This document shows positions 12,401-64,000 of a DNA stretch of 64,000 nucleotides, piece by piece. Origin of the DNA: Ulva prolifera (taxonomy: Eukaryota > Chlorophyta > Ulvophyceae > Ulvales > Ulvaceae). A model generated the notes under the pieces. It saw only the letters and a program-made list of their open reading frames with translations, had not been told where the DNA came from and ran no database searches. A program made the translations under genes and the position numbers. Location of the stretch: positions 4,432,430 through 4,496,429 of the forward strand of contig CM041204.1 in NCBI GenBank assembly GCA_023078555.1, written 5' to 3'. Numbering within the stretch: position 1 is the stretch's first letter; every line of letters starts with the position of its first letter.

Positions 12401-15400
12401 ATATTTGATTAATCGATTAATCGTACTTGCTGTGGCTCGGGCGTGCGGTGTTGCAATTGGCTCCCTGGCACTGAGTCGCACGCTACTTTTGCAGTGCTAC
12501 CTGTCTCCGGGCCCCAACTTGACCAGCATAACCTGCACGCACATGTGCTGCGTGTGGCTGGCTGCGTAGTGTGCGGTTCCCCTGGTTGTTGCTCGCGGTA
12601 CTACCTGCCTTGCATACTTTGTCCTTGTAACACACGCACTCACGGTAGCGGTACATGCATGAGGGGCTCCTGTGTACCGCCAATCATGCATACCCTGCTT
12701 TACATATGACATAGTACCACATCAATCACGCCACAGGTTGAACAGTGCTGGTGCATCTGTCAAACCTGGGATTCAGGAATGTACGGCAAATATGCGTGGG
12801 TGCAGTGGCGTAGACGTTGCAGGGGCCCCCGTCGCAGCCGCACTTGCCAAGCAGACTGCGTGGGCCCCCGCGGCGGCGAGCTGCGGCACTCGCTTCATGC
12901 ATATGTTCAAGGACACCGCAGGGTGGAAAGCGAGCCCCCCCCGGCAGCAGCGGCATGTGCGCCGGGCTGGCTACCTCATGTGCTTGCATACGCAAGAGCC
13001 GCGCCCGCGCTTGCACTTTCTCGCACGTCGGGCCGGGGCCTCTGCTGGGGGGAATCTCTCGTGACAGCTTCTGCGCTGGACCGGTGAAACTGTCGCCTGC
13101 GTTCGAGCATGCTATCATCTAGGTCTCTCTTCCAAACGATGCTGATCAGTGGTGACGTGCAGGTGGCCCGAAGGAGATCGTCCCAGAGCGCGTCAAGCAA
13201 AGGCACCTCAAGACCGCTCTGGACTTCATGCTGTCTCTCGGTGGCCCTGTTTCCGGGAGGCTTACTCAGACGTTCATTCAGGGCATGATCCCGGCCATCC
13301 CCACTCAAGAGGAGGTCCCATGTGCGGCTCTTTGCATTGCTTGCTGTTCTGCTGCTGCAACCGAGCACCACGAGGTGATCTCCACCGCGGATAAGCAATG
13401 TCTGTGTGCCATCGAGTCCAGGCGTCTAATATTTAGGACAAGATTATCCCAGATAGCTATAGCATTCATGAGGGGAGCCTGAGGTCACTCTTAACCTGCC
13501 TACTCTAGAATTGCAGCAGCGCTGTGCGAAAACTTTACCTCCGCTTGTATATATATAGAATCACATCTTCACAACAAATCTGAGGCTTGCATGTTTGAAC
13601 ACATACGGTGAAAATGCAGATCTGGCGGCAAACGTTAGGGGCCAGATTGTCCCTCTGGGCTTGTACGACAACTTTGAGCGGTCGGTCGAGTACTTCTACA
13701 TCATGCCCCGGATCATCCGCTTCCGCACGGCCATCGTCGGCAAAGTGAGCTGGTTCAACCTCCTCACCAGCCCCGACCCCGCTTCGGCGATCGTCGCCGA
13801 CGGAGTCAAGCTCGAGCTGAGTGAAGCATTCGTTGACGGCAACACCGTGCGCCGCACCCACACGCCCTGCGCCCGCCTGCGCCTGCCTGCGCCCTGTGTA
13901 CTGTATACAGTGCGGTGGGACGAGTCCACTGAAGAATATCACAACTGCATGCCAACAGTGGTGGACTTCTCTGCATGCTTGCAGCGCAGCGCCATCTCTG
14001 ACAAGGAGTAGGGGGGAAAGCGTGCGCTGTCCCTGTGGGCAGGGCGCCTGGGCCTGCCTGGTCGCGGCCCTCCGAGTCGTGGTGGCATGGACGTGCTTTG
14101 AGACTGCGGAGTGGATTGCCTCTGACACATGTACCTGTGATGCGCCCTCCAGGGATCCTCAGGCGCAGTCGCGCCGCTCTCGTGTCCCATCTGGTCGTAG
14201 TTGACCGTGTGCGAGTGTGCGATCTATCCTTGCCTGGGGGTGACGAGGCCTGTTTGCGAGAGGCATGATGTATCAGGAACAATTCATGCCAGCACATGAA
14301 TCCTAGTAATTTGCCAGGCTCTGTGGCATGCGCCAGCTGCCATGCAGGTGTTTGTGAGGCTGCACACCCCCACCGGCTTGATTTACGGCGCGAACCGGAG
14401 CTTTGCGGGGCCGATCGAGGGGGAGCCGACGTTCAACTTTGCCGCAATCCTGTACATGGACCGCGACTCCAAGGTCTGCGGCTACAACATCCAGGTGCGT
14501 GATGGAGTGACCGTGGAATGGCCGTGCCAGGTGACGATGGAGAGCTCCGTTCGTGCTCATGTTGATACTGCTGACCTTTTCCTCGGCAGCAAAGGTGCCA
14601 AGAGATCCTTTTCCTGGGCAAGCTGAAAGGACAAGCACACTTCACGCACCCAGGTGGCATCGGTGGCTATTCTGGAGGTGTTCAGATGCACGCTGGGCAT
14701 GCAGGCACCTCACTTTGGAGCGTTCAACCGGTTCATCGACCCGTTGCGCGACGGTGGCTTCCCGACCCCGGAGGCGCTGGCCCTCGTGCCGGACTCCCCC
14801 TTCAAGCGAGCCTACCTGCCGAAGGAGGGCGTCACCACGTGGCTCGAGGAGATCTGCGACGTCGCGACCGGGGAGCTGTGCCTCCCAGTCGATGGCACAA
14901 AGTGCGCTTTGTTTTTTTTTTTTGCATTGGTTTTCGAACACTGGTGAGAATTGCTTTGCGCTCTGCTATGACCACTGCAACTACTTGTGCTGCTGTATCA
15001 AACGGCTATAACTACCACTTCGCCCATGCACTCTGGGTCCAATGGGTTGAGGACGGATTAAAAGCTACCCCCTCCGTTTCAGGAGGTCGTGGGTTCGATT
15101 CTGCGTGCGCTTTGGGGAATCGAAACGGCCGTACGTGACCACCTCGCTTAGCACAGGAGGAGGCCCTGTGAGTTGCGTACGGTCGTCTGAGGGGGGTTTC
15201 CAGGTGGTTTACCCCTTCGGCATATGTGGTCCCGTTAATTCGGAGTTGTCAATGTCCAATAGGATACGGCTCAGTAAATTTAGATTTACTTTACTTTACT
15301 TTACTCTGTTGCCACACATCTTCAGAATGTAGGTTGTCATGGACCCCAATGCTACTGCTACCCCCACTAGTGGTGGAATCGCTACTAGTACCACAATCAC

Positions 15401-16825
15401 AGCCGATGCAGTGCTGACAATCGCCGTCGCTGTGCCGTTCGCATGCATGTATCATTCAAGGCCACAGCCGCAAGTGGCATGTGCACACGTTGCGTACACA
15501 CAGCAGATGTCTCGCCGCGCGGGTGTGTTGGTCTGTTCTGGGTGTTGCTGGCTGCGTGGGTGTGCGGTTCCCCTGGTTGTTGCCCGCGGTGCTACCTGCC
15601 TTGCTTAAGCAATTGCTTCGTCCTTGTAAAACACAGCAGCTGTCTCGCGCCTCACGCTGCAGCCGGTGATACAGTTGCAGCTGACGCAGGATACTTTTTG
15701 CCGCAGCGTCTTGTCTTGTGGCACTTTGGGTCAGATGGTCGATCATCTAAACGTCATTGACAATTTGAAAACCTGTGCCGCGTGTGACTACGCTGTAGCG
15801 CTTCGGCCGGACTCCCCAGACTGGACAGCATGTGGTACCGTAAGGGAACTACACATGTACTGACTGGCATGCGCACGGCGCTAATCATGGCAGGCTCCCC
15901 GGTGCCGGGTGGCCTGCCATGATGATGATGCCAATTGGCTTGCAAGGTGTCACACGCGTGACACCTAGGCAGGCACCTGTATGCGGGTGTAATGTCTTGC
16001 GTGCTAAGCAATACGCTGGCCGTGTCGCCCGACACACGTAACGTGATATTGTCCGCCGCTCGCATGCAGGTACTATGCTGACAAGGCAGACTGCATGGAG
16101 AAGCTCGGCAAGAAGCGCATCGGAGGCTACGACGACATCGACGGCGACACCCTGACATGCCGGGCGCTGCACCGCCTGCTGGTGCCGACGCGGCCAGAGG
16201 GGCACTGCAAGCACCTCGCTCCCAACCTCTCGGAGGAGGAGGGCGGTGTCTGCATCGACCGCCTCAGCGAGGTGTACAACAAGCGCACCCCAACGTGCGG
16301 CCCCATACCCCCCCTCCCGCCCCCCAGCCCCCCCGCAAAAAAATGATTTAGATGGACTGATGGTACAGCTGTAGCTGTACAACGATGTGTGGTAGCAGTT
16401 GTTTGGGATGAGGCATGGGTGCGTCAGGGCGCCGCGAAGTGGCCGGCTCTGCTGTGGGCTGCAAGCGGGCACATGCATGCGCTCTACTTCACTGAGCATG
16501 AGCACAAGCCGGTTTACAAGCGATCGGCAGAGGCGCTAGGACTCCAGGCATGTTTGCGTGGCAGCTTCTGTGGACTAGGTTGCACCCACAAAATCACTCC
16601 CTTTCGAAAACCTGGATTCACGGCGAAGCAATGGACGTGTGGTGCTGCAGGTTCCAGTGCGGCTATGACGACGTGGGGTACACAAGGCCTGCCGCTGAGG
16701 GCGGGGGGGCGTATGTGAGTGGCGGCTACCCCTACACAGTCGCCGACTTTGCGACAACTGAAGCCGACACGGTGCCCGGGCCGGTGTGCGAGGAGTACCA
16801 GGGCATGGGGTTGTACGGCAAGTAG
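9438..16825 (+). CDS. Unrecognised, probably secreted multi-exon protein, paralogue B
   Basis: This is the tandem paralogue of the gene in copy A, with the same exon plan: 9438-9572 (signal peptide), 13163-13374, about 13620-13846, 14348-14494, 14654-14901, 16070-16294 and 16651-16825. Exon protein sequences are nearly identical to A, with changes such as VASVAILEVF for VRSAAILVVF and GKKRIGGY for GQKRIGGY. It ends CEEYQGMGLYGK and a TAG stop. Paralogue C shares the CEEYQGMGL ending, so this C-terminus looks ancestral and that of A derived. A SINE lies in the intron between 14901 and 16070, in the same direction as the gene, and a poly-T tract lies just downstream of the 14901 donor. No frame break is visible in the recognised exons. 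The function is unknown. Confidence 0.72.
10831..11381. mobile_element. Candidate 551-bp MITE-like element in copy B
   Basis: This is the counterpart of the element at 2302-2852, here with perfect 12-bp terminal inverted repeats (AAATACGCGTAT at 10831-10842, ATACGCGTATTT at 11370-11381). The interior is virtually identical to that of copy A. It has no identifiable coding function. Confidence 0.38.
11470..11562 (-). mobile_element. Old SINE 3' fragment in copy B
   Basis: Counterpart of the fragment at 2940-3032, with the same orientation and sequence. It lies next to the candidate inverted-repeat element ending at 11381. Confidence 0.6.
15035..15305 (+). mobile_element. tRNA-derived SINE, full length, insertion specific to copy B
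   Basis: The 5' end is tRNA-like. An A-box-like GGTCCAATGGGTTGAGG is followed by a CCTCC/GGAGG stem like the long variable arm of a type II tRNA, and then a B box GGTTCGATTCTG. A unique body follows, ending in TTTAC repeats (TTTACTTTACTTTACTTTAC). The empty site is visible in copy A at 6616-6624 (GCACTCTGTTG). In B, CTCTG occurs on both sides of the element, consistent with a short 5-6 bp target-site duplication. It lies in an intron of paralogue B in gene orientation. Near-identity with the copy at 52 kb indicates a young family. Pol III transcription and LINE-supplied reverse transcriptase are what is known for such elements; none of that machinery is in this window. Confidence 0.88.
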
Positions 16826-17244
16826 CTGGCGACCGGCGGCTTGGCGCAGGTAGCCACGGCGTGGGGATCGGCCCAGCCTGGCTGCAACAGATAAACACCG
16901 CATATGCATGTTTTACAGGAGGGACAAAAGTACATTATGAAGGGGGGCGGGCACATTGGACAGCAATTCGCATGATACAAGTGAACACATACGTATATAC
17001 TTGTGCTGCTATGAAGCTGTGCCTGCTTGGGATATGGGTGTGTGAACACAGAGTTTGTTGTCTCATGAAGTACGCACATAATTTCTGGTGATGCGACCTG
17101 TGCAACACGTCTCTCCGACATTCCTTGTAAACATTTACATATATCATCCCGCGGGCGGGTCAGTGGAAACTGTCGACCTGTTTGTCCTTGTTGCCATGGC
17201 TAGCCCATCAGTCGATACCTGGCTGTCACAACGAGGCTCGATGC
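16826..17244. other. Convergent intergenic region
   Basis: This 419-bp stretch lies between the stop of paralogue B (plus) and the stop of DRP5B (minus). I see no gene, repeat or RNA in it. Both 3' ends, including their polyadenylation sites, must fall here. Confidence 0.6.
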
Positions 17245-20200
17245 TCAACAAGCTGCAGCGGTCACAGCAGGTCCCTTGCGCAGCAGGCTCTTGATCTCTC
17301 CGAAAGTCGTCTTCAAGCGCTGCATGTTCTGCATTTCAACGTTCAGCAGCTTCTGCTTGTCCTCTAGCTGCTCCCGGATCTGCACATCACAATCACCATA
17401 TGCCCAGGCAAAACCTCCTGGCCCACATTGGGCTGCTCGCCCGTGCTGTCTGCCCCAGCATCTCATGGAGTGACAATCTACAGCAGTCTCATCATCTGCA
17501 GGCGTGTTCACAAGCCTGGCAGAGCTCAACCAGGGGCAATGAAACATCTGCAGGCCGCAGCTGCTGCCAGCATGAGCCCGATGCTGTGAGCCTGCCAGAT
17601 GTAGCTGCTTCATGCAGCTGCATGAGCAGGTGTGAACTAGAGGCATGCGAGAGCGTGGACGGCTGTGTACCTCTTCGGTGTCGAACAAGCCACTGAGATC
17701 TTCCTGGTCCAGGCACTTCTGCAGGTGCTCCGAGAGGCCCTCCTGCAGCTGCTGGAGCAGCTTGTAGTTGAACTTCCTGACAGTGTCCCCGATGAAGCCC
17801 TTCCTGATGCTGACGAACAAGCTCTCGGTCAGCTCAGGCACGGCCTCCTGGACCACCTGCCCCCGGGGCTGGCTGAGAAGCGGGCTGATGTGACGCCGCA
17901 GGAAGCTGGTCAGGACCTCGCGGGCGTTATATTGATTTGCATTAATTGCACTGTCCACCTCCTACATCAGCACATTTCCGGTTTCCCCATGCCCCAATCA
18001 AACAGTAGTGCCTTGCTTGGGTGCGATGTGGCGCCGTCTTCCAGCCCACAGCGCAGACAGTCTGGACGGGCGAGCTTGCAAGCTGATATTGACGCTGCTG
18101 CTGCTGATGCATGTACGAACATTCGCATGGGTGACATTTGAACAGTGTAGGCACAGGCTTCAAGTTGCACGAACAGCCTCGCCGCTCGGCGGAGTCCACA
18201 TGAGTTCGCACAATCGCAGAGATTCCTTGGGGCACAGGCACAGACACTCGGAAACAGGAGTGTGATGTCATTGCCCGGGTACAAGTGCCAAAGGAGCTCA
18301 ACGGCACGCACGTGGTCGTTCACGTTGCAGCGCACGGCCTCCCGCAACGCGGAATCGCTGTCGCTGAGGGTCACAAAGTGAGTCCGTGACTTGAGGTCGT
18401 CCAGGGCAGACGTCCTGGCCTCTGCTTCTCGGTCGTCCAGGAACTGGGTGTAGTGCCCCTGGATGCAGTCCAGGATGCTCCCGTCCATCGCCTGGAGCGC
18501 CGGATCCCCTGCAGAGGCTGACCCCGCCTCCGTCTTTTTCAGGCCCAGCGTCTGGGCATGGTGGGCCCCGTCTCGCGACTGTTCACTTCGTCAAACACAT
18601 GTGCAGCCGTCGTGGCTTGTTCAGAGTAAAGTAAAGTAAATCTGAATTTACTGAGCCGTATCCTATTGGACATTGACAACTCCGAGTTAACGGGACCACA
18701 TATGCCGAAGAGTCCCAATATGCCGAACAGTCCCAATGCAGGACTTCTGCTGCCCACCTCTTGCGACCAGGGATCCAGCATCTGCAAGGGTCTGAGCTGG
18801 CAGCAGAGCATTGCGGGCACCCCTAGTAACAGTCATATAGTCACTGACAAGGTGCATATGGTGATGCATCACACCAGTCATGTTCATAATCTCATTGGCG
18901 TCGCTGGTGTCTCGGGTGCATGCTGTCCGTGAGATCTGCAGAGTACACTGTAGCTGAAGCGCAGGCTGCTCGATGTTGTAAGCAAGGTCTACACCTGATG
19001 AGATCTGATAGACGTCAGCAGCAGTCGGGTCAAAGGCAGGAGCAATGGTGGAGCAAGGAGCACCTGATGAACCTGGAGCCGAAATCAGCGTGCGGCTCAG
19101 CTGCATCACACGGGCCAGCACGTGCTTCACCCGCAGCCCGAGCTGCTGCAGCAGCGGCTCAAACGCCCGTTCCGCCTTGTCTGCAGCCAGCTGAGCTGCC
19201 ACGGACGTGATGTTTGGGGCGTCGGTGCGGCTCCCCAGGCCGCACTTGTTGTCCATCTCAGCTCCGGAGATCGTCGGGCACTTGGTTTGGCTCACAAACT
19301 CCCTGCATGACAGGAAGCAAAGCAGTTTCGGCCTCAAGGCCAAGCTCAATACTGCTGGGTTGTCATTCTGGCCAACATGTTGAAGGTGCTTGTGACATGT
19401 GCATGCGATCATTGTCATTGAACTGACACATATTGTCACAGCTGCAGACAGAGTGAATTAAAGTGATACTGCGAACACAGCTGCAGATTCAGTGTTGATG
19501 TGTCAAACAGCCACCAGCATCAGTTGCAACATGCCTCAGGTCAGCAGCTGCACGATGCCCTCGCGGACAGCTGTGCTGACGACAGATGACCTGGTCAAGG
19601 AGCTCACCGGAACTCGTCCAGGACTCGGAAGTACTGTGCCCCTCCATACAGCTGCCGGTCTCCAAACTTCTCATGCACGTGGTGCTCCCATTCAACCTCA
19701 AGCTCAAACCCGGGTGTGCATGCCAGCTGGCCCTCTGCCTCCCACTCCTGCTGCAGTGTCTGGCCGCAGTTGGCATCGTGTGGGAGGCATGCGTCCCCGC
19801 TGAGCAGCTTTGCGATCTCCTTCTGAACAGCCAGGAGAACGCTGCGCACGTGGTCCTGCACAGCGCAGCGGTGGGTGAGCCATACAGCCTGGCATCGTAC
19901 CACGTACCAAGGTCACCGGTGGACATCTGTGCCTGTGGTAATTACCACAAGACGTTTTAACAAGACGTTGCCACAAGCTTGGCTCCCTTAAGGGAACCGA
20001 TGCCATCATGTTCTTTGATGCGAACGAGAACACACACTCTGGCCTCTCAATCAATCATTGCAGTCATTGCCATTGGCGACACCTCAGAGGACCGGTGGAA
20101 AACCGGTAAGGAAAGCAAAGTGGAGTAAAGCAACATGGAGTGCACTTAGCCACGACCACCAGTAACACTGTTTACGCAGCGAGTATTTATGAACCCCAGG

Positions 20201-33602: not shown

Positions 33603-33941
33603 CTGTGTCGCAGGTGGCACCAGAAAAGCAGGCACATATGTAAGATTATCCTGAACTTCAAACTCGCGAGTTTCATGAGCTCTGTTACAAGGATAAAGCC
33701 TAGGCTGAAAGTCGAGTTCTCAAATTCTGAGTTCTCAAATTCTGATCAGTACGTGCTGCTCTCTATTCCACTCTGCCGTGAGTACATACTCCACCAGGCC
33801 AGCAATCATCAGATGGGCACGACACAGGCACTGTGCCGGTAGGCATGCGCGCAGCTCGCGTCGAGTCGCACGATTGCCAGGACACATAGCAAAAGCATGG
33901 CTGTATGGTGTGGCACACAGCCTCACTGTCGCCGCTTGCAG

Positions 33942-34679
33942 GTACTATGCTGACAAGGCAGACTGCATGTGGCAGCTCGGCCAGAAGCGGGTTGGTGGCT
34001 ACAAGGACATCGACGCCGACACACTGACATGCCGGGCGCTGCACCGCCTGCTGGTGCCGATGCGGCCAGAGGGGCACTGCAAGCACCTCGCTCCCAACCT
34101 CTCGGAGGAGGAGGGGGGCGTCTGCATCGACAGTGCCAGTGCGGCTCACAACAAGCGGGCTCGGAGGTGTGCCCCTTGCATGGCAAAGATGCAAAACATG
34201 TACTAGTATTGCAATTACAGTGATGGAGTCGGCGTCTTGGTGCGGAGGGACCTGTGTGGGACGTGGCCCAATGAGCCCGACCGCTGTTGGTCGCAAGCCC
34301 TTGACACTTGCAAGGAGCAACAGCATGCTCGCCACTGCCAGGCTGAGCACGAGCGGATGTCGGTGTTTATAAGAGGAATCGGTCGGGGGGTGGGGCATGG
34401 GGGGTCGGTGTGGTGCGTTTGTGCTGCACCTCCAACGTGCCAATGGGGGGTACTCGAGTTTGCGTACCTGCATTTCAGCGTCCATGCAAACATGCGGGCT
34501 CGTGGTGCTGCAGTTTCCAGTGCGGCTACGATGATGTTGGATACACAAGCCCGATCGCTGAGGGCGGGCGGGCGTATGTGAGCGGCGGCTACCCCTACAC
34601 AGTCGCCGACTTTGCGACCACGGAGCGCGACACCGTCCCCGGCCCGGTCTGCGAGGAGTATCAAGGCATGGGGCTGTAA
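33942..34679 (+). pseudogene. Orphan terminal two exons of the duplicated secreted-protein family (copy C)
   Basis: Exon 33942-34166 encodes YYADKADCMWQLGQKRVGGY..., homologous to the sixth recognised exon of paralogues A and B. Exon 34514-34679 encodes FQCGYDDVGYTSPIAEGG...CEEYQGMGL and a TAA stop. Both exons are open, flanked by AG and GT, and their phases agree (AG|T across the intron). None of the upstream exons (signal peptide, FNRFIDPLRDGGFP block and so on) is found within several kilobases on either strand. This is therefore a 3' fragment copied to a new place, or the surviving end of a third gene. It differs from A and B by clear amino-acid changes, so it is older than the A/B duplication. 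The open frames would also allow it to be the tail of a fusion gene with an unidentified 5' part. Confidence 0.7.
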
Positions 34680-35279
34680 GGAAACCGAACGGCGGCAGGC
34701 GGTTAGGTGATACAAACCTGCTGGTGCGGGGGGCGCTGCACTGCACCGCCGTGGGTGCGGCACGTCATGGCACTTCATGCCGACTGTGTTTGGGTGAGGT
34801 CTGTACGTCCTCTGTGGTTATGGCAGGTGCCGGAGTGATCGTGTTGCCTGGGCTCCGTTGCGTCTGTACATTGCAGTGGCGGCCAGCACAATACCAATTG
34901 CAAGAAGGATCGCCGGGGTGATGTGGCAGTCAAGACATACTCATTGCCATCACATATACGCAGCAGGCATCTCTACATATTCACTGACATTGTAACTTGT
35001 GTTCCGCACTTGGTGTGTCCGTGATCTAGTAGAGTAGAGTGTGGGGCAGCAACTGGAGCGGATCTGCATGATATCGCGATCGTCTACAGCCTCATGCTCC
35101 GCTCACCTCCATGCCAGACAGTTTCAGACTCGATGCGACCCTTCGTCCACGCTCAGATTCTATGAGCATCAGCTGTGGTAAGGGTGTGTCTGGTCTCTAT
35201 TGTGCTGGGTTCTTGACTGTCGGACCTGCAGCTGCCCCACTGACTTTGTGCTGGTTGCGCATTCACTGTGACCGTCAGG

Positions 35280-50849: not shown

Positions 50850-53399
50850 TTACGAGGCGATCACCGTCAGCGTAAACGGACCGCTATGCAAAAATCTTTT
50901 TCTGTCGTGCAAAGAGCGACGCGCTCCAAAAATCGACGGTTTGCACGACGGTCTATCGCTTGTGTCGTAACCGCCCCAGAGCTTGCACTAGGTCCATCCG
51001 CCACGTCTGACCCGGGTGCAGGAATTCCTGATGAAGTCTCAGCTACTGCACGGAGCCTGTGGTTTGGCGTCTGTACTGTATCCAGCACCCGCGCGAGGCA
51101 GGGACGCTGTGTGTGGTTCACGGCAGGTTCGACGACTCGAGCCAGGCATGGACCGGTTTGCGGACGCCTGCAAACATATTTAAATGAATTGTACAGATCA
51201 AAGTCCAATGTGACGAACCCGGGGTAGTGCATGCCCTGCGTCTCGAGCGCAAACCTCACCAATGCGCCCGTGGTTTACCACCGTTCCGGACAACCAAAAC
51301 TCAAATTCGCAGGCATTTCGCAGACAAGCGCATGTGCGCGTTGTACAGAACATTGAAGGGCTTCTCTGCATTCGCCCCGCAAACTGCGGAATGCACGAAG
51401 CAATACTCGGGGCGCAATCATCGCCGAGGGGATTCGGAAAGCTGCGCACATCCGACATCTCCCAGGTGCTCTCACCCCAGCGGCAGCCATCAGTGTCGAT
51501 TTCAGAGTGCTTGAGAATTGTATGCCTGGTAATTGCGACCGGAGTGACCAATTTCTGACTCTTGCGATGACTTGGGCAAATCGCTACAATCACGACCTCA
51601 TGTGGGCGACTTTTGGAAGAAATGCAGGCTTACCAATGCACGTTGGGTATGTTTGCTGCAATTGGCCATGCTCTGATCAGTTTTACTGCGCCATGTGGCC
51701 GCAAAGTACTGCTGACCAAGGGTCAGCCCGATCGATATCGTTGATATGATGCATGCATGCGTCCATACGTTAGCCACATGTGGCACCGCCCTCGTCCGTG
51801 TGGCTCAGACGGCTCCGCAGCTCCCTGGGTGCACTGTGGCCGTGCATGCCATATACCTGCTTGTATCGATTGCTTACGATTCCTGCGAACCGAGCTCAGT
51901 GACGGATCAATTATAAGTAACTGACGTGTCACAGTGCCCATTAATGCAGCCAATTGACTGCCTGCATGCCTGACTCTGTGTGTATGCAGCAACAACACAA
52001 CTGGGTCCAATGGGCTGAGGACGGATTAAAAGCTACCCCCTCCGTTTCAGGAGGTCGTGGGTTCGATTCTGCGTGCGCTTTGGGGAATCGAAACGGCCGC
52101 ACGTGACCACCTCGCTTAGCACAGGAGGAGGCCCTGTGAGTTGCGTACGGTCGTCTGAGGGGGGGGGGGGGGGGGGTTTCCAGGTGGTTTACCCCTTCGG
52201 CATATGTGGTCCCGTTAATTCGGAGTTGTCAATGTCCAATAGGATACGGCTCAGTAAATTTAGATTTACTTTACTTTACTTTACTAGTGCCAGCAAAGAG
52301 GCACAGCTCAACAATCTTCCGAGAAACTACTCAGCCGAGTCCCTCATGAGCCATGTGGCAGACACATCACATGCTATCACGTTCGCAAGCATAATCTCTG
52401 CTGATTGAAACAGCAAAGTAGTGCGAATCACATGTCGCCAAGCCACGTTCCAGGCTTGAGTATGGTGAGATGCACAACCGCCGTGATCTTCTGTCCCAGG
52501 GCGCTGATTTTAAATGCAACTGTGATCCGGCTGCGCCATGGACTAGGCGCTGGGCAGCTACATCTGTGTCAATGCAAGCTCACAGCGACGCAGGCTGGTG
52601 CTACAAGACAGCAGGCGGTGCACATTGCCCAACCATGCAGGAATCCTCCTGTGCTGAAGAGTTGGCTGTCAGCATGGGTGAGTTGTAACTCACTGGGATT
52701 GAATTCGGCATGGCATGTGGATACGCTGGTGTACCTGGCCATGGTGGCGGTGCTGAAGAGGCAGCCAGCGTATGCCTGGCAGGACGGCTGTTCATATATT
52801 GACGGGGCATTCACAAGTAGTCAAAAAGTATGGTAACACGGCAGGCCATGCATGTCCGCACGGCACGAGGAAATAAATCCCGCCAATGTGTGTGGATCAA
52901 CAATCTGACCAAGTACAGCGCTAGGATAGCTTTTTGAATATATTTTATAGCAAAAAGTCCCCCTCATCACAACATTTATGCACCCCCCCACCCCAGCTGC
53001 TCCTCATCACCCTCCCCCCAACCCGCATCTCCACATGCCTCCCCCCATCCGCGCACTGGCCACAAATCTCACACACCCATTACGTGCGCGTTCTTGCGCG
53101 GCATGCTCTTCCTGAGGTGCTTCCTGCTTCCACGGCCTTGTCCTTGTGCCACACACTGTAATTCCCGTCAGCGTCACCCAAGCCCACGTGAGGCGCATCC
53201 CGCAACAGAGAGGAAACAAGACTCCGCCACCCTAGGCAGCCCCCATCTGGTGCCCACTTAATGTTGGGTGCGTGGCGCAGCTTGCACCAGAGCAGACAAA
53301 TGTTGCAGGCGCCACAACAGCCCCAAACGAGCATAGCCCACACGAGCAATAGAGCACACTTACATGCCCAATCCCCAGCCGCCACAGCGTCCCGCACAG
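50850..53399. other. Intergenic region with a SINE, no gene recognised
   Basis: Open frames of up to 131 codons overlap on both strands at 50.87-51.75 kb, including a minus-strand frame with a short internal echo (GPCLARVVEPAVNHTQ, then RPCLARVLDT). I could not decide whether they are upstream exons of the helical-repeat gene. The SINE occupies 52002-52285, and an old interspersed-repeat 3' end lies at about 53090-53160. Confidence 0.4.
52002..52285 (+). mobile_element. tRNA-derived SINE, full length
   Basis: This is nearly identical to the copy at 15035-15305 over the tRNA-like head, body and TTTAC tail. The main difference is an expanded run of about 18 G residues at about 52159-52176, where the other copy has six. 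It sits between the helical-repeat gene and TSG101. No clear target-site duplication was found beyond ACT. Confidence 0.88.
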
Positions 53400-54030: not shown

Positions 54031-55810
54031 TCAAGGTGTACTGTATGTGGCAGTGTGCCGCCAGTTGTCCCCTTGCGGCATCATCACGCCTGCTTGCATT
54101 TGATCAATATACCCAGGTGACCCTGCCGCTTGCAAAGCAACTGCCTTTTGGTGCTGCTGAGCCTGCAGCTTATTCCCCAACAGGCGTGCACGGAACTGCG
54201 CCTCTGCAAGCTCACGGCACACTTTTATGTACACCTCAGGAGAAATGCTCCTGGCCTTCAGGCTGTCAGAAAGGACCTCTACTGAATCCTCAATTGCCAT
54301 GTCTTCCGCCTGCAACAGCCAGTCAGTGCGTCTGCACACATGATTTGGGAATTCTGCGTCATGCAAAACAGCAGAAGAGCAACAGCGGCGGCCTGTACAT
54401 GCTGAGGCCCACATGACATGTGGTACACACCTGTGCGGAGAGAGCATGCTCACACAGGGAGTCAGCCGGCACAATGGCTGTGCTGGGTGTGAATTCAGAG
54501 GGCAGGGCCGCTGATCTAGGCTCCTGCTCCTGCAGCCAAGACCTCAGGGCCGCATTGGTGGAGGACAGCGCAGTCACATTGCGCTCCATAACCCGCAGCT
54601 CAGCCTTCTTCTCCGCACAGGCATTCGCAATGACCTGCATTGATAGTACAAGCCTGGTGGGATTGGTCGGGCGCTGCATGACCAACAGTGGAGAAAAAAC
54701 ACGGGGTGACAAGCACATCTGCAACTAAGCATTTGACGTACACAGGCATTAATCAGGGGAAGTGTCTGGCAGACGGCAGTACCATGGCGCCAACCCTTCT
54801 TCAGGCCCAACAGCAGAGTAGATATGTGCCGTTACACAGGCTGACATCCAGGCATGGCACACATGCTGAAGCAAAGATGACTGCATAGATGCACCCGAAT
54901 GCACAGTGCATTTGGAGCGCGCCCTGTTGGCCAGCTCACACAGCGCAGGCAGGTGGGGCCCCACCTTGCGGTTCTCCTCAAGCTTGGTTCGCTGCCCCAG
55001 AGCTTCAGCAGTCTTCTGCTGAATCTCAGGCTCGCTCTGCTGCAGCGATGCCAGCAGCCGCTTCGTGAGCGCTTCCATGGCAGTCCGTCGAAACGCTGCC
55101 GACCTCCGGGCTTTGGCAGCCTCAGCACTGGTGCCTGGATTTGGAGGTGGTTGAGGCTGACCCTGCGGCATGGGAGGAGGGCCGCCAGGGTAACCCACTG
55201 CGCCACCAACTGGATAAGCTGGGGGGGTAGGCGGCGGCCTTGTGGCAGGAGTGGAGCCATAGAGGCCTGAGTCTGGGGAAGGGTATGTGGGTTGTGCGGA
55301 CGCGATGTATGGGTTGTGGGCTGGTGGGTAATGTGATCTTCCAGCACTTGCCGTAGTGGGATATGTCGGATACAATGTATTGGGCTCCGCTGGCAGAGTA
55401 GGGGACGGCGCGGGATTGCGCAGCGGGTTTGGGAAGTACGACCCGTCAGAAGTGGTGTAGGGATCGCTGACGGGCGGGGTTGACGGACCTTGGGGCCGAT
55501 GGTTGTCGCCGTAGTACGTTGGGGTGGAGTTCCGGCTGATGGCAGCTGGAGTCTCTGCCACAGGCCGAGTATACACTGGGCTTTGCTCACCAAAGTTTGT
55601 CGACATCTCGGCCAACAACCCATCTAGCTTGGAGCTGGGGAAACTCCAGGATACCACCGCAGGGGTGTTGATCATCCCGGAGGCGACATCCACAAACGGA
55701 TGAGTGGGAGCAAGGCACATTGTTGCTGTTGGACGCACATAGGGAGCTGGAGACTCGATCGGGAAGTTAGGAGGGAGGAACACCTCGATAGGGATGTTGA
55801 ATTTTCCATT
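54031..55810 (-). CDS. VPS23: ESCRT-I subunit TSG101/VPS23, first exon(s) not found
   Basis: Exons on the minus strand are 55810-54965, 54634-54431 and 54309-54031 (TGA). The large exon starts inside the UEV (ubiquitin E2 variant) domain: NGKFNIPIEVFLPPNFPIES, then PYVRPTATMCLAPTHPFVD and WSFPSSKLDGLLAEM. A Pro/Tyr/Ser-rich linker (YPVGGAVGYPGGPPPMPQGQ) follows, and then the start of the coiled coil (AFRRTAMEALTKRLLASLQQ). The middle exon continues the coil (AEKKAELRVMERNVTALSST). The last exon has the steadiness box: AEDMAIEDSVEVLSDSLKAR then ISPEVYIKVCRELAEAQFRA. In ESCRT-I the UEV domain binds ubiquitinated cargo and the steadiness box holds VPS28 and VPS37, for multivesicular-body sorting and membrane scission. 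The UEV N-terminal helix and first strands should lie upstream in 55.9-56.9 kb, but I could not define them. Confidence 0.9.
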
Positions 55811-57682
55811 CTGCACAAGCAACGCCCAGGGTGTGTGGGTGCTGCAACCCACATGGTTCTGACGAACGCAAGGCGGATCATGAGAGGTGCGAGGACATCA
55901 GGGAAGTAGTAATCACAAAAATTATTTTCATCTAATGTCTTGCACTTACAACTACCATGCATGAGGCAGTCCAGCCGTGGTCAGCTCCAAATTCAGGACA
56001 GGCCACTTCATCATGTCTGTCACTACCAGATCTGGCTTGTTGGTATGCGGAACAGCATACTGAAGACCAATGGCTTGACAAACGTGATTTAACGGTGCTC
56101 CACAGGCGCGGGCATACAGGAAGCCCTGAAGACAGATGTGTTTCACATTTGACATATGTGTGTTGACATCAAAGCCTGCCCGGTTGACGAGTGACTGAGA
56201 AGGAGATACTATCACGGACGAACTCAACTGGACACAAAGAGGCGATAATGGGGGCCCCGGTCTACATATTGGGTATCCACTTATCGAAAAGCACTGCAGC
56301 ATACCTTGTGCAGTATCGGGATGGTGCCTTCCAGAGCATAAATTCTTTGGTTCCTGCAATCGTGGCAGTCTCATTTCAGATAATTCTCCATTATGCATTA
56401 CAGTCAGGTGGAAGGCACCGTGTCGTCGGTGCTGGCTCCGTGTACATCCGCACGTACGCCGGAATGTACGAACACACCTATTGCCCTGATAATCGACTTC
56501 CTTCAACTTCAGGTTGCCGAATCGTGGATCCTGCAATGCATTGCATGATCGCGATTCAGACATTGTCGAAATTGCACGGTGCCGGTGTGAGGAGGCCCAC
56601 ACATGTCAACTCGCCATTAGCTAATCAACAAATTCGCGAACATGCGCTCCACGGCAGCTTCAGCAACATATGTACAGCAATTTGCGATTGCAAACGGGCT
56701 GCTGTACCTCGTGTGCTTCCAGAAGCTGCTGTTTCAGTGAGTATTTATTGTCCTCCGAATAAGCAAGTCCTGAAGGCCCTCCTCGAGTCAAGCTGGACTC
56801 TAGCTCAGACCTAAATGAATGATTACCGTCTGTATTCGTTGGGAATGGAAACATGATGGCCCAAGACAGAGATAAAGATTGGCTGTCACTCGCGAGGAGG
56901 CATCACATAACTGGACTTGCACACGCCCTCCCAGTCGTTAGCGCGCTGCTATCTGTACCTGTCAGTCCACTCACATGATACCCAGACATCAGGCCAGCGC
57001 ACCACGACGCACGAGGTCTGCCCACCCGCGGAGCCAAGTCACCGACTGTGGCTGTGGTGGTCCAGGCCTCAATCTTGAGCCGCGCCCTTACGCCACGACC
57101 GGGCTGCAGCGCTTAGTAGACAACACACGAGCACCTCTCACTTCATATGACTCTGAAATTGTTGAATGATAAGGCACAGCCGTCGAGGAACTCACGACGT
57201 ACACAGGATTTAGACGGCCATTCACCGGATAAACGTTTCAGATGCATGCCCATGTCAGGTAGCGAATGCACACCGGGTGTGTCACGTAGTGTAACTTTAT
57301 TGGCGGGCTAGTAGAGGCTGCATCAATGGCTCATTCAAGCCAACATGCAGTCATGGCTCATGCGATCGCACATAAATGCTTGGATCACACTCAAGTCCAA
57401 CTAGTGCACCGGCCTGGAGGTTGTGCACATGCTTGAGCTAATGTCAGAATATGCAGCTCATATCGATACCGCTCTCAAAGCACCTCTGTCGCTTACAATG
57501 CACTAAGACATGCAGATCTCAGCATGGCTACACACAGCAAGTGAGGCTGTATCTGACTGTCTGGCGAACATGTGCCACGCTTGCTTACATATGGTGCTGC
57601 AGGGCTGCTCAGCCTAGCCGTGCCTTTCTGCCTGCAAGCGATGCTCCACGGCGCTCCCTATTCCACTCCCGTCACAGTGCCA
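55811..57682. other. Region upstream of TSG101, first exons not resolved
   Basis: The UEV N-terminal exon(s) should be here on the minus strand. Candidate edges are a GTAAGT donor just below 55950 and small open stretches near 56.0-56.8 kb, none convincing. Nothing was recognised from 56.9 to 57.68 kb. Confidence 0.35.
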
Positions 57683-60600
57683 TCAGCGCAGAGCATCTGA
57701 GCAACGCTGGTTGGAAACAGATCCGCAAACACTACTCTGCCGGCTTCCTCCTGTGCTCCGATGGTCGTTCGAATCATGTGAGCAGTCCCGCATGCTGCGG
57801 AGTGGCTGGATCACCAGCGCACCTGGCCCTGATCCAGATGCCGATGCCACTGAACGAGGCTGCATGACTGCTGGGGAACCTTCTCTGTCTGTGCGGTCAT
57901 CCATGCTGCCTCGGGGGTACATGATGCATCGCCCTGGAGTACTACCGCGTTGCACATCAGAGTTCTTAGCATGAGATGAAGGGCCCGAATGCGGAGGGGG
58001 GAGCCCAAGGATGCCCGAACGGTGCGCAGCATCCTCGTCAGGGCTGTCTCCAGCAGGATTGTCGGCAGGTGTCAGAAATGAGAACAAGGTGCCTGCACAT
58101 GCCACGCCACCATCAATATCACCAAATAGATCTACATGCGGTTAAGGAAATGTTACAGTCCAGCATGACCCAATCGATGCAATCTCCGTGCTGCCCCGGA
58201 CATCACTTTTACAACTGCAAATGGCAGGTGCAAAGCATTCGTCCGCTTCAACCCTGGGAACTTGGTGAAGTTGATATCAGATCAGAGATTGAATTCTATG
58301 GCAGCGTGTTGCAAGAGGAGTGGTTCCGGATCCCATTGCATCCTCCCCATACAATGGCTAGTATGTGACACCCATGGTCTTCTGGGCTTAGGGTGGAGTT
58401 TGCTACCGACACCGACAGGTGGGGCAGTCTGCACACCTGCACCGATTGCAGTGCAGATGTGGCAGACCCCAAAGCAAGAACAGAACGCACTCTGGGAGGT
58501 GTGGTGGCCCACTGAAGGAGCACTCTGAATGGGGAAGCGGCCTGCAACAGACACCGACCTACGGACACGTGTATCGGTGCTGGCGGACATGGGGGTTCTC
58601 AGGTCACATGAGGTCCCTCCGGGTGTCACTGCTGCGCCGTGAAGAAGGTCGCAGGCAGCAGTGACTTCGGCACGCCGTGGCGAAGAGGATGCGCTGCTTC
58701 TGCTCCCGTGTGCCTGCTCCTGGACACGTTGCAGTGGGTGGCTCTGCACAGATGCCGCATGCGCAACACCACCTGCACAAAAAGCATAATGATCTAACAT
58801 GATTCTGTTCCACAGCTGGCTGTAAACATGCAATGGATGCTTGGTAGACGCCAGTCGTCCATGGCAGGTGCATGGAATGCGCAACAAGCAAGTCGCGAAA
58901 GCAATAAAACCTTGATGACAACATCGCAGTGTGCTTGCCCTCAGAATTCTAGACCGGCAGATAACATGGATACTGAGGGCGCTCACCGACCTGCCCGTCA
59001 GTGACTGAACAATGGCTGTGCTACTTCCCAAAATCAAAGGGATCACCCCCACAACATTGACATGGCAGACTCGATGCCCGTACGGCTTGACAGGTTCATT
59101 CTGAATGCCGGCATACCCGATGTAGAAGCTGCCATGTATTCCTCAGCATTGCTGTCTGAGTGTACCAAGCGGCTCCGGATGGAGTCAGATGACTCCAATG
59201 CTCGAAACGCAGCATCTCGAACAGATGCAGCCCCGGTGCCTCCATCGCATGACATACCATCAGCTTCATCTGAAAGAGCACCCATGTCTGCATTGACATG
59301 ACCTGAGACCTGCAGCAGGGCACCGTTTGAGACAGTCAAAGCAGCAATACTGACGGCACACCATATCTCCACGAGATACAAGGTGGCAGAGACAGTGGTC
59401 GATGTAACTGCTTTTGAACCTGCTTGTCTTGAAGACTCATAACACTCGTGTCTTTGTCACGCAGTGACATCAAACAACACGACCAGTTCAGTGGAGGAAT
59501 GAAACACGCTTTGCATGGCATTGCAGCTGCCATAGTATCATTCTTACGCTTGTGCAGCTCTCGATTCAGAGCTCCTTGGGGGCAACAGGCAGCTTCAGAC
59601 AATTGCTTGTAGAATCAGCACTGTGATGACGAGGCTACTAGCATGCTATTGGTCTGCATATATTTAAAAGCAACATCGATGTGCATGTCAACATGGCCAG
59701 CTGAAACTAAAATTGACATAGCAACACATACTGCCTTGCATAGACCGTACCTTCACTGCATAGCATTTGGGGGTTTGCCCAGGTGATGCTTCAGCCATCC
59801 TCATGGGCTGAAAGCAGTCATGGGATCGCGGCACGTCAGCCTCAATTGAAACACGCTTGCAGTGGCCATGGGCGGGTGCAGGACCAAAATTGCAGAGCTC
59901 CGTTGGGAGACCATGTCCAACCGATGGGTGGCGGGGCGTATGCCCAGGAGAGGCGTTGGCATCCCGTATCGGCTCAAACTGATCGTGGCCCGGTTCCGAT
60001 TTGAACGTCACATGTATGGGCGACGCCACTGCAGCATCCATTGAGGGCCGTGGGGTGTGGCCAGGCGAGGCGTTCCTGGCCGCGAGTGGGTGAAAGTGGT
60101 CATGAGATGGAGACGCAACAAATGTCACATGTTCAGGCTGCTGTTGGAGCGGTGGGGACAAGTGACTTTGTTTGTGTTCCGCCACGCCATTTTGGACCGG
60201 GAGAGGGCTGTCTGGGCCACGCCCGACCGGGGACACGGGGATGGCACACGCTGCTGACAGCGCAGCAAAGCCGGGTGTATGCCCAGGGGAGCGCTGGCCG
60301 GCATGCATTGGAGCAAAGGCATCATGGCCAGGCTCGGCCACAATGCGAACATCTGGCATTGCTTTCATGGGGGAGTCGCTACTTTGGCGTGGGGTATGGC
60401 CAGGCGATCGGCTGGGCCAGGACACTGGATTGAACTCATCATGGCCGGGGCCACTGACCACGACCACGTGCATCTGGTCAGTATGTGAAGCGTCATCGGA
60501 TAGTGCAGCAGGTGCCATTGCCACCAGGGACGCTGCGCCTGCATCTGTCACATAAGGGGGGATGGTGCCAGAGCCGGCAGCAGTGTCAGCATCCGAAGGC

Positions 60601-63600
60601 GGCACATCGCCAAGTGCACTGCCTGCTACAGACCGCACGGGCGTACAGCCTGGTGACGCAACCCGTGAGCGAAGCGGGTTGAACTGGTCATGGCCTGCGG
60701 CTGCTAGAGGGCTGACTCGAACAGTCGGGAGTCGGCCCTGGCCATGAGCGTGTGGAGTCCCGCCTGGGGAGGCAGTGCCAGACTTCAAGGGAGCAAAGTT
60801 ATCATGGCCGGGGCAGCTGTGCATGCGGACACGTGCCCCAGGCGCGCCGCCGACGATTGGTGTGCAGCCAGGTGACCTGTCCAGGCAGCGCATTGTGCAA
60901 GAGCTGTCTGCAGTCACATGCTCGACAGCAGAGCCCTGCAAAGTGCGCACATATCAAACAATCACCAACGATGATAACATAATTAGCAAACATCTGATGC
61001 AAACACCGGAAATTACGCTTCTCAGCGCGCTGCCAAGCCCAAGTTTGCGACACCAGCTGCAAAGCGTACCGTGTCACAGCCGTTCTGGAAAGACACAGAA
61101 CGATCGTGTGGGCGCAGTGTGTCTGTCCTTTGTGTATCGCCTTCGTGCATCGGAGCGGTGCCATCTCTATGATACAGTACCCCATGATTAGCATGTGGAG
61201 TTGGCGGCACAGGCTGAGCATACACACGGGGCGACACTGCATTGATTGTTACCTGCACAACTGACAGGGATGTGAATGGAACACCATACAATTCTTCGAT
61301 GTTGTATGATTTTACCTCTGGCGACATACTTCAGCCACATTCATGCTTCTGCAAAGGTGGCTTGCAGGATGGGCGTACCGCATGTGGGGCTATATTTGCG
61401 GGGCCCCGGCTCGATGCACTAGCTTGTCTTGCAACTGGGGAGCGAGGCGACAGAGGAGGGTTCAGGACTCCTTTACTCGGATGTGGGGTGGCAGGAGGTG
61501 GCACATCGTATGTGTTCGGATCCGCGTACTTGTCAAAGTGCACGCGGACCGCCTCATCATCATCCTCTATGCATGCCGGATCCAACGGGATCCGCGGCTG
61601 CTCAATCATGCTGTTGTTCCGGGACGGCGCAGATGGCATTGATGGGGACAGGTGCTTTTGGAAACTGCTAGAAGCACGCAACCGCATGCCCCCTGAATCA
61701 CCACGTGAGCCAGTGTTCTCTGCACCAGATGTGCCTGCAGTCCATGCAGGTTGAGCATAGCTCCACACCTGTGAAAGCGGTGCAGCAGAGAGATTCTGTG
61801 TGCTCTGGGCCACGGCTACCAAGCTGGCGCTGCAGCACTCTGTGATGACTGCGTCGGGTGGGAGCGCACTCAAAGATGTATCAGCAGCCATTCGCCTCAA
61901 AATTGTGACTGTGGCGGACGCTCCCTTGTCCTGCTGAACTTGTTGCCGTGCACACTGTGCAGCCATCCCTGCAAGCATGAGTCACGAAATATTCACCGAG
62001 GCCCACCAAGATTATGTCTCGATGATTCATCGCCATATCAGGCTGTTCACAGCCTCAACGCAACGAAACGTATAAAATCATGTTGCCAGTGAAGCCTGAC
62101 GCTTCATTGCTGTAGCATGTAATGCTTGGGCATGCTCGCCAGAACCTTTGATGTACACACAAGCAGTCGCAGAGTCAGACGCGACATGCTTTGAAGACAA
62201 CGGACATGGAGGCTACACCTGGTAAGGTTGTTCCTTCAGCGCTCTTTGATACACTTTGAACAGAGTCGGTGGCACGTTGCACTGCCGTTGCAGCCTGGGC
62301 GCCTGCTTGCCTCAAGCAGTTCATCAGTGCCTCCTCTTCCATGTGCTGCTGACTGGATGAAGCACTCCCCCTGCACATGTTGCACTGTCTGTTATGACAC
62401 ACAGCGGTGCTCCTTGAGGAATGAATCTGGCGACACAGACAACTTGAGAGCCCACGGGGTAGCATGATATGGGCGCAGACAACAGTCGTGGCGGCAAGAA
62501 ATTGAAGACACCCCCAACAATGCATACTAGAAAGGTAGTGGGCCCACACTTCTTCTGCCACCCTGTTGGGCGATCATGCTGGTACGACGACGTAGCACAA
62601 TCGGCACGACAATATGCAGTCCGCAGAGCAGCTTCGTAGGCAAGGGCGACTTTGCTTTCTTCCAACTCCAGCCATAGGCGCCGATTCTCCCCCATCAGCG
62701 AGGACCTATCTTGCAGCAACTGCTTGATCTGCATGCTTCAACAAAATCATTCCTCTTACACTCGATGTGCTAATTTATTTTCCTGTGCCTAGCTACTTCG
62801 ATCGCAGTCACGTGTGGCCACCATGTATGCATCTGATCGAGGGCTGACCTCTTGCTGACCTTTTGCTGAACATTTTGCTTGCAACAAACATGCAACAAAC
62901 ATTTTGATTCGATTCTGCGTGCGCTTTGGGGAATTGAAACAGCCGTGCGTGACCAACTCGCTGAGCACAGGAGGAGGATCTGTGAGTTGCATACGGATGT
63001 CTGAGGGGGATTTCCAGGTGGGTTAACCCTTCCGCATGGGGTGCCATTCATTCGGAGATGACAATGTACTCTTCAGGTCATGGCGACGTATATCCAGAGT
63101 TACTTTGCTTGACAATTTGAATCAAAAAATGCGATGCGGAACAGCAGAAGGCGCGCATCAAGCGGTCTCCTCACCGCGCAAATTTTTGAGTTGAGAGCTG
63201 GCAACAGGTCGGGCCAGGTTTTAGACAGGTGATAGGTCATAAATGCAATCAGAGGAAGAGCCAGAATAAAAGCTCGAAATGAGCGCTATTCGACCATGCA
63301 GACTTTGTATCTCGAATTCTGGAGTGCACCTTGTGGTGAACATGGCGTCCATGAATTGCAGAGCAATCCCAGACACATGTGCACAAACAGCCTCAGCACA
63401 TGATCAACATACCTGATCTGTAATCACATACGATGGCGCGCTTGCGAGAGAGTCGATTCCTTGGAGAGCTGCCAATGCTTGAGCTTGCTGCTGTGCCACC
63501 ACATTAGCTCTTGCAAGGGCGTTTCGTTCGTTTTCGAGGTCATTCAGCCGCAAACGCAGTTTCTCCGCTTGCTCCATGCCTTCTGTTTGAGACAAAGCAG

Positions 63601-63985
63601 AGCTTGTTCGCAGTGCTTCAAGTTGCACCTCGAGAACTGCACGATCCTGCAGAATGCAAGTGAAACTGCCCGTCCTGCTTGGTGAACCACAAAGACTAGG
63701 ACTCGGCTCGGATGGCAATTTCAATGCAGCACACAGTCCTCAATTGAACCGAGGCAGAGCACAGCGGCGGGAGAATTGTAAAGGTTCTTATGACTTGTGA
63801 GCGACCTGACACGCTGATGTTGCCGTAGTCAAATAAGGCTGTACCTGAAGAGCTGCATCTAGGCGGTGTTTGAGACTGTTAATTTCTTTTCCTGACGCAA
63901 TGCGCAGCTCTCGCAATTCTTTGCACATCTGAGATTCCCTCTCTTGCAAAGCGGCGACGTGAAAAGCAGCTTGGCCCTCCAACAC
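57683..63985 (-). CDS. Coiled-coil, Ser/Pro-rich protein with seven GHDxFxP/SPGxTP repeats (5' end outside window)
   Basis: Minus-strand exons run from the right edge. About 63985-63845 (QAAFHVAALQERESQMCKEL) and 63660-63415 (EQAEKLRLRLNDLENERNAL) are coiled coil. About 62730-62570 (KQLLQDRSSLMGENRRLWLE) is coiled coil too. About 62372-62218 (QQHMEEEALMNCLRQAGAQA) follows. 61968-61331 and about 61255-61069 are Ser/Pro-rich, with a second repeat. 60935-59751 is one 395-codon exon with the seven repeats. 59310-59053, about 58773-58517 and 58093-57683 (TGA) are Ser-rich tails such as RRSVSVAGRF. The coiled-coil N-terminus and long disordered tail, dense in SP and TP sites, suggest a scaffold regulated by proline-directed kinases; this is inference. 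I recognise no family. A diverged antisense SINE lies in one intron. Joins between the smaller exons are approximate. Confidence 0.72.
59769..60809 (-). repeat. Seven 19-residue protein repeats, consensus GHDxFxPxxxxxxSPGxTP
   Basis: Repeats lie on the minus strand at 60809-60753, 60695-60639, 60446-60390, 60329-60273, 60107-60051, 59990-59934 and 59825-59769, each exactly 57 bp with no gaps. Examples: GHDNFAPLKSGTASPGGTP, GHDAFAPMHAGQRSPGHTP, GHDQFEPIRDANASPGHTP. Two copies have Ser for the first Gly (SHD). An upstream beta-like VxV/VxF dipeptide pattern (for example HVTFVASP, HVTFKSEP, DVRIVAEP) precedes most copies by about six residues. An eighth half-copy, SPGCTP, is at exon residues 21-26. 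Linkers of about 19 to 64 residues separate the copies. The regular length despite variable linkers points to a selected motif and not to recent tandem slippage. Confidence 0.92.
61177..61510 (-). repeat. Two copies of a second motif, YxxPxPxTPHxxxGVL
   Basis: YDVPPPATPHPSKGVL (61510-61463) and YAQPVPPTPHANHGVL (about 61222-61175) are in neighbouring exons of the same gene, gapless over 16 residues. Both contain a TP site followed by His. Confidence 0.7.
62907..63110 (+). mobile_element. Diverged SINE copy lacking the 5' head
   Basis: It begins near the B box (GATTCGATTCTGCGTGCGC) and follows the SINE body with many substitutions. It ends TATATCCAGAGTTACTTTGC instead of a clean TTTAC tail. 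It lies in an intron of the minus-strand repeat-bearing gene, in antisense orientation. Together with the 2.9-kb and 11.5-kb copies, which share the TATATCCAGAGTTAC ending, it defines an older subfamily. Confidence 0.75.
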
Positions 63986-64000
63986 ATTTTGAGAGGCTAG

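Follow-up and report, generated by a model that had tools for sequence, protein, structure and literature searches.

The 64-kb stretch of the Ulva prolifera genome analyzed here (C9:4432430-4496429, hereafter the window, of a genome of 88.9 Mb in 44 contigs) carries on its minus strand an array of a short protein motif, [GS]HDxFxP(6)SPGxTP. Two plastocyanin exons of this genome, when joined, give PDB chain 7pcy as their top match (E 1.9e-59), ahead of 1iuz and 2plt; 7pcy comes from Enteromorpha (Ulva) prolifera and 1iuz from Ulva pertusa, in keeping with an Ulva near U. prolifera. A single open reading frame (ORF) at 59688-60953 holds seven full copies in one frame, each of 19 residues without a gap (n = 7), running from the first G of copy 1 at 60809 to the last P of copy 7 at 59769. 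An original prediction had described seven equal-length copies at 59769-60809, and those coordinates prove exact. The units are as follows.

60753-60809, minus strand: copy 1, GHDNFAPLKSGTASPGGTP; motif match in frame, preceded by RVRM
60639-60695, minus strand: copy 2, GHDQFNPLRSRVASPGCTP; motif match in frame, with VRV at -9
60390-60446, minus strand: copy 3, GHDEFNPVSWPSRSPGHTP; motif match in frame, preceded by HVVVV
60273-60329, minus strand: copy 4, GHDAFAPMHAGQRSPGHTP; motif match in frame, preceded by DVRIV
60051-60107, minus strand: copy 5, SHDHFHPLAARNASPGHTP; motif match in frame, preceded by HVTF
59934-59990, minus strand: copy 6, GHDQFEPIRDANASPGHTP; motif match in frame, preceded by HVTF
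59769-59825, minus strand: copy 7, SHDCFQPMRMAEASPGQTP; motif match in frame, with VSI at -9
60858-60875, minus strand: half of an eighth copy, in which SPGCTP is kept and HDxFxP is missing; lies at the start of the repeat exon, recognized by its profile score

Judged by its sequence, the array is real and more than chance would produce. Nine columns (H, D, F, P, S, P, G, T and P) are invariant in 7/7 copies, as expected if the copies keep G/S-H-D, F, P and SPGxTP, and only 4.5e-08 matches to these nine fixed residues would be expected from the repeat exon's own composition. Pairs of 19-mer windows with at least nine identities number 227, compared with a mean of 0.35 and a maximum of 10 in 300 shuffles. 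A six-frame scan of the window finds [GS]HD.F.P (seven matches) and SPG.TP (eight matches), the two halves of the motif, in the repeat ORF alone. Scored against the profile, the eighth half copy reaches 7.3 bits; of 500 shuffled decoys, 33 scored high enough to be reported, the highest at 4.7 bits. Beyond the fixed columns, the position after HDxFxP is hydrophobic in every copy (L, L, V, M, L, I, M), and the position before SPG is either A or R.

The conserved pattern also reaches upstream of the motif. An element of the form [VI]x[VIMFL], which the original prediction had noticed as V-x-V/F before most copies, precedes 7/7. It starts at -9 in copies 2 and 7 and at -7 in the other five; its background is 1.6-3.0% per site, and both offsets were picked after inspection. 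Position -7 is V in six of the seven copies and I in the remaining one. At the residue level identity is low there, and the element appears to be retained as a pattern rather than as a sequence, because columns -10 to -4, at 40% identity in codon positions 1 and 2, barely surpass the variable columns within the motif, at 34%. The unit as read from the alignment thus exceeds 19 residues and would span about 27-28, [VI]x(phi)...[GS]HDxFxP(phi)xxxx[AR]SPGxTP, with phi for a hydrophobic residue.

Comparison of the copies with one another, within one gene of one genome rather than across species, speaks to their age. At the invariant columns, identity between copies is 100% for codon positions 1 and 2 and 40% for position 3; at fourfold sites in these columns 38/105 pairs agree (0.362), against 0.263 expected from the exon. 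Silent sites are therefore largely randomized while nine positions show no replacement, which argues that these are old copies under purifying selection at the level of the protein. Copy starts are 38, 83, 39, 74, 39 and 55 residues apart, and the recurrence of 38, 39 and 39 suggests that the copies are arranged as doublets (P about 0.04 under random placement, calculated post hoc). Outside the invariant columns, doublet partners are mutually closest or joint closest, with 7, 8 and 10 identities of 31.

All copies lie in one exon, as originally proposed, and this exon (60935-59732) has GT-AG borders and maintains phase on either side. It belongs to a partial gene model of ten GT-AG exons with phase kept throughout, which runs from 64018 to a stop at 57683 and encodes 1,224 residues. 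The exons, with a slash marking each splice border quoted, are listed in order of transcription.

63845-64000 in the window (start at 64018), minus strand: exon a, helix-rich; GTGCAG/GTTGCG ... CTTCAG/GTACAG, phase 0
63413-63646, minus strand: exon b, helix-rich, with coiled-coil-like composition; CTGCAG/GATCGT ... GATCAG/GTATGT, phase 0
62562-62728, minus strand: exon c, helix-rich; phase-consistent, with a weak donor (GTGGCA)
62219-62370, minus strand: exon d; phase-checked exon chain
61379-61968, minus strand: exon e, with RVHF and a PPPATPHP stretch; phase-checked exon chain
61070-61252, minus strand: exon f, with RSVSF and PPTPH; phase-checked exon chain
59732-60935, minus strand: exon g, the repeat exon, 401 codons plus one base; TTGCAG/GGCTCT ... 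AAGGCA/GTATGT, phase fitting both neighbors
59117-59302, minus strand: exon h, where the Ser-rich tail begins; TCTCAG/GTCATG ... CATCGG/GTATGC, phase-consistent
58437-58772, minus strand: exon j, Ser-rich tail; inferred, with the donor picked among 13 in-frame options
57683-58131, minus strand: last exon, ending ...NQRCSDALR and then the stop; inferred

Exon a begins 18 bases past the window edge, its start having been placed at 64018 in window coordinates from the upstream genome. No first exon could be fixed in the 20 kb upstream, and the gene start lies beyond the window. If the exon h donor were left unused, the frame would stop at 59043 instead. Upstream of exon e, the phase-checked exons take the place of an implausible string of small exons proposed by an automatic gene finder that had been trained on proline-rich sequence. 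The intron between exons b and c contains a copy (62847-63010) of a 164-nt dispersed repeat that recurs at 15033-15196 and 52001-52164; the latter two are 99% alike, the intron copy is 65% alike, and the repeat is possibly a short transposable element.

The predicted protein opens with a helix-rich part of 192 residues without S/TP sites, continues through a 308-residue spacer (6 S/TP) into the repeat exon (401 residues, 23 S/TP, 14 aromatic residues, isoelectric point (pI) 6.9), and ends in a tail with 54 Ser in 323 residues and 7 S/TP, which bears out the Ser-rich tail of the original prediction. The N-terminal coiled coil proposed in the same place fares less evenly. The composition of the helix-rich part (2 Pro and 6 Gly in 192 residues, in the exons from 64018 to 62562) agrees with it, a crude heptad test found no contrast above shuffles (27.5% of 200 were as good), and the true N-terminus lies farther upstream.

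Several features of the surrounding DNA are recorded here for completeness. Just downstream of the array gene, 54752-55894 on the minus strand encodes a UEV domain (PF05743, E 2.7e-14) and, after it, a Pro-rich stretch; we take this to be a TSG101/VPS23-like gene. Upstream of the array gene is a Bestrophin-like exon (PF25539, E 1e-19; L004:794-1168, minus strand). A long open frame with W-rich helical repeats (L004:8505-9374, minus strand) matches no Pfam family at E up to 0.01; its repeats resemble Sfi1-type centrin-binding repeats. Similar low-complexity frames, GRPPPPP...RRTGKT..KRGTPEP, occur upstream of exon a in opposite orientation (L003:2100-2600, minus strand, and L003:7100-7700, plus strand), and are probably a dispersed repeat. 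At the other end, window positions 1-17300 hold a tandem duplication of ~8.6 kb, in which pieces from 50-7616 have second copies 8.5-8.7 kb farther along; identity is 90-100% for the two-copy pieces listed, and a third, partial relative lies at 33936-34707.

The motif is likely undescribed, on comparison with Pfam, PDB, GTDB, viral contigs and the Ulva genome itself, a set that holds no algal proteomes. The repeat exon and tail match none of the 24,736 Pfam-A models at E up to 10, and the front part of the model gives two matches only, the better at E 1.9, far below the cut-off. Among PDB sequences, eight chains appear at E up to 10 (best 0.089), and the full motif is in none of the five alignments shown. 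GTDB contigs gave nine pattern matches, none confirmed, and viral contigs no relative, in scans that reach close relatives only. The earlier statement that the signature belongs to no known family thus holds for these four external collections, none of which gave a strong match to a known domain. In open-access papers, SPGHTP, SPxxTP, SPGxTP and GHDxF were not found, and only SPxxSP turned up.

Within its own genome the repeat-exon protein matches itself alone. A doubled consensus unit finds five places, all in the repeat exon, plus two weak outside matches at C9:1484735-1484989 (E 0.55 and 1.14), which turned out to be a tandem repeat of a different kind. This search scored the stretch of copy 7 at only E 0.57, so that a lone unit equally diverged would escape detection. 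By eye, VRVHF...PPPATPHP in exon e (61424-61576, minus strand) and VTIN...PPTPH in exon f (61181-61252, minus strand) resemble the unit; the profile reported neither, and we make no claim for them. The TPH stretch of exon e, searched against its own genome, found itself and one match at E 2.45.

AlphaFold2 assigns the repeat segment no confident fold. The repeat exon alone is modeled at a mean predicted local distance difference test (pLDDT) score of 34.1, and one unit aligned with its six sister copies reaches 66.5 without secondary structure. The suggestion that the motif and the preceding VxF form a small fold therefore draws no support from either model, in what is a weak test when real homologues are lacking. 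Because the invariant residues are short, the linkers free, the unit repeated and the fold not confidently predicted, we infer a linear motif that would bind one folded partner.

The proline-directed sites point to how such binding could be regulated. The repeat exon has 5.7 S/TP sites per 100 residues, compared with 0, 1.9 and 2.2 for the three remaining parts of the protein, and the S-P and T-P of a unit are exactly four residues apart in 8/8 units. Of 16 consecutive S/T-P neighbors less than 15 residues apart in the whole model, eight have this spacing and the next commonest spacing occurs twice. In one study, the GSK3 consensus is (S/T)xxx(S/T) with the second site primed, and SxxxpS/pTP peptides are read as Cdk1-primed in yeast (PMC12027387); another has GSK3 phosphorylating four residues upstream of a primed site to yield doubly phosphorylated ligands (PMC8786283). 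The S-P-G-x-T-P of 8/8 units matches the S/T-x-x-x-S/T pattern, a permissive one, and since four is the GSK3 register, priming of the TP by a proline-directed kinase followed by GSK3 action on the SP is favored. The i, i+4 spacing thus points as much to this route, absent from the original prediction, as to the CDK- or MAPK-type control given there.

Docking patterns do not establish the attribution to CDK or MAPK. For a MAPK D-site, which is not supported, phi-x-phi is present in 7/7 units, and K/R within six residues upstream in 4/7 by eye and 3/7 by regular expression, where about 2.5/7 would be expected by chance (2 to 3 copies) from 29 K+R in 401 residues. The DEF consensus, F-x-F/Y-P, has no match in 1,224 residues, and Cks1 docking, [FILPVWY]-x-T-P, conflicts with G at -2 of the T in 8/8 units. 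What stands of the proposed docking motif with a paired SP/TP switch is the invariant pair and a constrained motif without a confident fold; the assignment to those kinases is not shown.

Our preferred reading, to which we give a probability of about 0.5, is that the array forms the disordered, multivalent part of a scaffold-like, Ulva-type protein, in which one linear motif, displayed seven times with one further remnant, would provide docking sites under a GSK3-primed switch. Most likely, VxV and HDxFxP(phi) would dock on one folded partner as an extended strand plus anchor. A proline-directed kinase of CDK, MAPK or DYRK type would phosphorylate the TP, and a GSK3-type kinase could then phosphorylate the SP four residues upstream, so that binding at the seven sites would be switched on or off in a graded manner. 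A more specific version, which we regard as doubtful, sees an undescribed phospho-docking module of β-augmentation strand, HDxFxP anchor and GSK3-primed SP/TP switch, perhaps ulvophyte-specific, whose doublets would grip a dimeric partner cooperatively when both sites are phosphorylated, much as APC repeats are used in animals. Several observations weigh against the preferred reading. The GSK3 consensus accepts a very wide range of sequences, and both sites could be phosphorylated by CDK or MAPK alone. The residues that most set the unit apart, namely HD, F, P and the SPG glycine, are not known to belong to any kinase consensus. Constraint is drawn from paralogous units in a single genome rather than from orthologues. 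AlphaFold without homologues is weak evidence for disorder, and the exon model does contain four short low-confidence strands, of which two cover VxV elements, those of copies 1 and 7.

The foremost alternative, a tentative possibility, is a constitutive binding epitope in which the whole unit, including SPGxTP, is a turn-and-strand peptide and S and T act as contacts or turn formers rather than phosphosites. The G of SPG, HD, F and P are as invariant as S and T, and S and T never interchange between copies; proline-directed kinases generally take both. Yet P follows both S and T in 8/8 units at fixed spacing, which a turn alone need not demand. We consider it unlikely that the copies act as Sic1-like phosphodegrons, a multivalent array that a WD40 protein of FBW7/Cdc4 type would bind once i and i+4 are both phosphorylated. 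Such an array would leave HDxFxP without a role, and a hydrophobic residue or Pro within three positions before the first phosphosite, part of the pattern of these ligands, occurs in only 3/8 units. Many copies do stand on one chain, with phosphoacceptors four apart (8/8 units) as in cyclin E LLpTPPQpSG and KLF10 pTPPYpSP (PMC8786283), although the first acceptor is S here and T in those examples.

Only marginally more remote is a phosphatase-anchoring scaffold, in which VxF recruits PP1, or a PxIxIT-like sequence recruits calcineurin, and nearby SP/TP phosphorylation is reversed. HVTF stands ahead of copies 5 and 6, and strict RVxF sites occur in exons e (RVHF) and f (RSVSF). VxF is nevertheless present in 2/7 copies only, with a basic residue in neither, the PxIxIT pattern is found in 2/7 copies, and the two strict sites in the model are not significant, as 5.5% of 2,000 shuffles reach two. 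The PP1 RVxF pattern sought within the unit ([RK].?[VI][^P][FW]) has a strict match in 0/7 units, both strict sites lying outside the repeats. A Rubisco-condensing pyrenoid linker of the EPYC1/CsLinker kind, specific to ulvophytes, seems very improbable. EPYC1 is strongly basic, whereas the repeat exon is near-neutral at pI 6.9; neither AlphaFold model, both of low confidence, contains a helix, the structured element repeated in EPYC1; and the SP/TP pairs find no place in such a protein, nor does the long helix-rich segment in front. It is nonetheless true that searches for linkers use a range of 20-120 residues, which takes in the spacings of 38-83, and that CsLinker can demix Ulva mutabilis Rubisco, less efficiently (PMC11570498). 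Equally improbable is a recent or neutral repeat expansion without function. The array is known from one gene of one genome, as such an expansion might be, but protein invariance combined with drifted third positions is the reverse of the trace that recent or neutral duplication leaves.

Known systems resemble the array in logic, by analogy, rather than by descent. The β-catenin-binding APC repeat motif of animals, FxVExTPxCFSR, is a different one, and phosphorylation falls within the APC repeats. The likeness lies in seven copies of ~20 residues placed centrally in a large protein with N-terminal self-association, as described in PMC7766042, where regulation of APC by GSK3 phosphorylation appears in a reference title. 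The Ulva model, its N-terminus missing, had no Armadillo match in the Pfam search, and the comparison is an analogy only. In KNL1 the coiled coil stands after its array, whereas the Ulva helix-rich part stands before it. At the kinetochore, the MELT arrays of KNL1/Spc105 are described as a phosphodomain that is unstructured and contains a short phospho-motif in many diverging copies, whose number tunes the signal (PMC7292645). A MELT-like pattern, [MVILF][DE][ILVMFY][ST], has no match in the gene model, a test weak on its own for an alga because plant KNL1 is said to lack a conserved MELT motif (PMC12526889). The gene model has no Pfam match to Spc7 or to the C-terminal coiled coil and RWD of KNL1; a genome-wide Spc7 search was silent, as were all 14 controls. 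With no MELT match, no Pfam domain and a different motif, membership in the APC or KNL1 families is unsupported.

Other parallels concern parts of the unit. GSK3-primed S/T-P-x-x-S/T-P sites occur in c-Myc, tau and other proteins, single or few per protein; the Ulva units share their two proline-directed acceptors four apart (8/8) and differ in that a fixed HDxFxP accompanies the pair and the whole recurs along the chain. EPYC1 and CsLinker of green algae are likewise algal, probably disordered and built of spaced repeats, but the Ulva array lacks predicted helices, has a neutral pI and carries an unrelated motif. The TP-rich repeats of SF3B1 and CDC5L, strings of TPGHTP-like proline-directed sites, may offer a further resemblance; HEAT and Myb are absent among the Pfam matches of the Ulva model.

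More broadly, checkpoints, destruction complexes and condensates are run by multivalent arrays in which short motifs are regulated by phosphorylation, and most of the well-studied examples are from animals and yeast. The Ulva locus is probably a variant of this theme, a real, old and constrained motif array. Its sharply defined invariant unit would offer, in a green seaweed, a clean handle for the partner and for primed GSK3 switches in algae. If limited to Ulva, the array would be a lineage-specific curiosity; if common to ulvophytes, it would represent a signaling scaffold not seen before.

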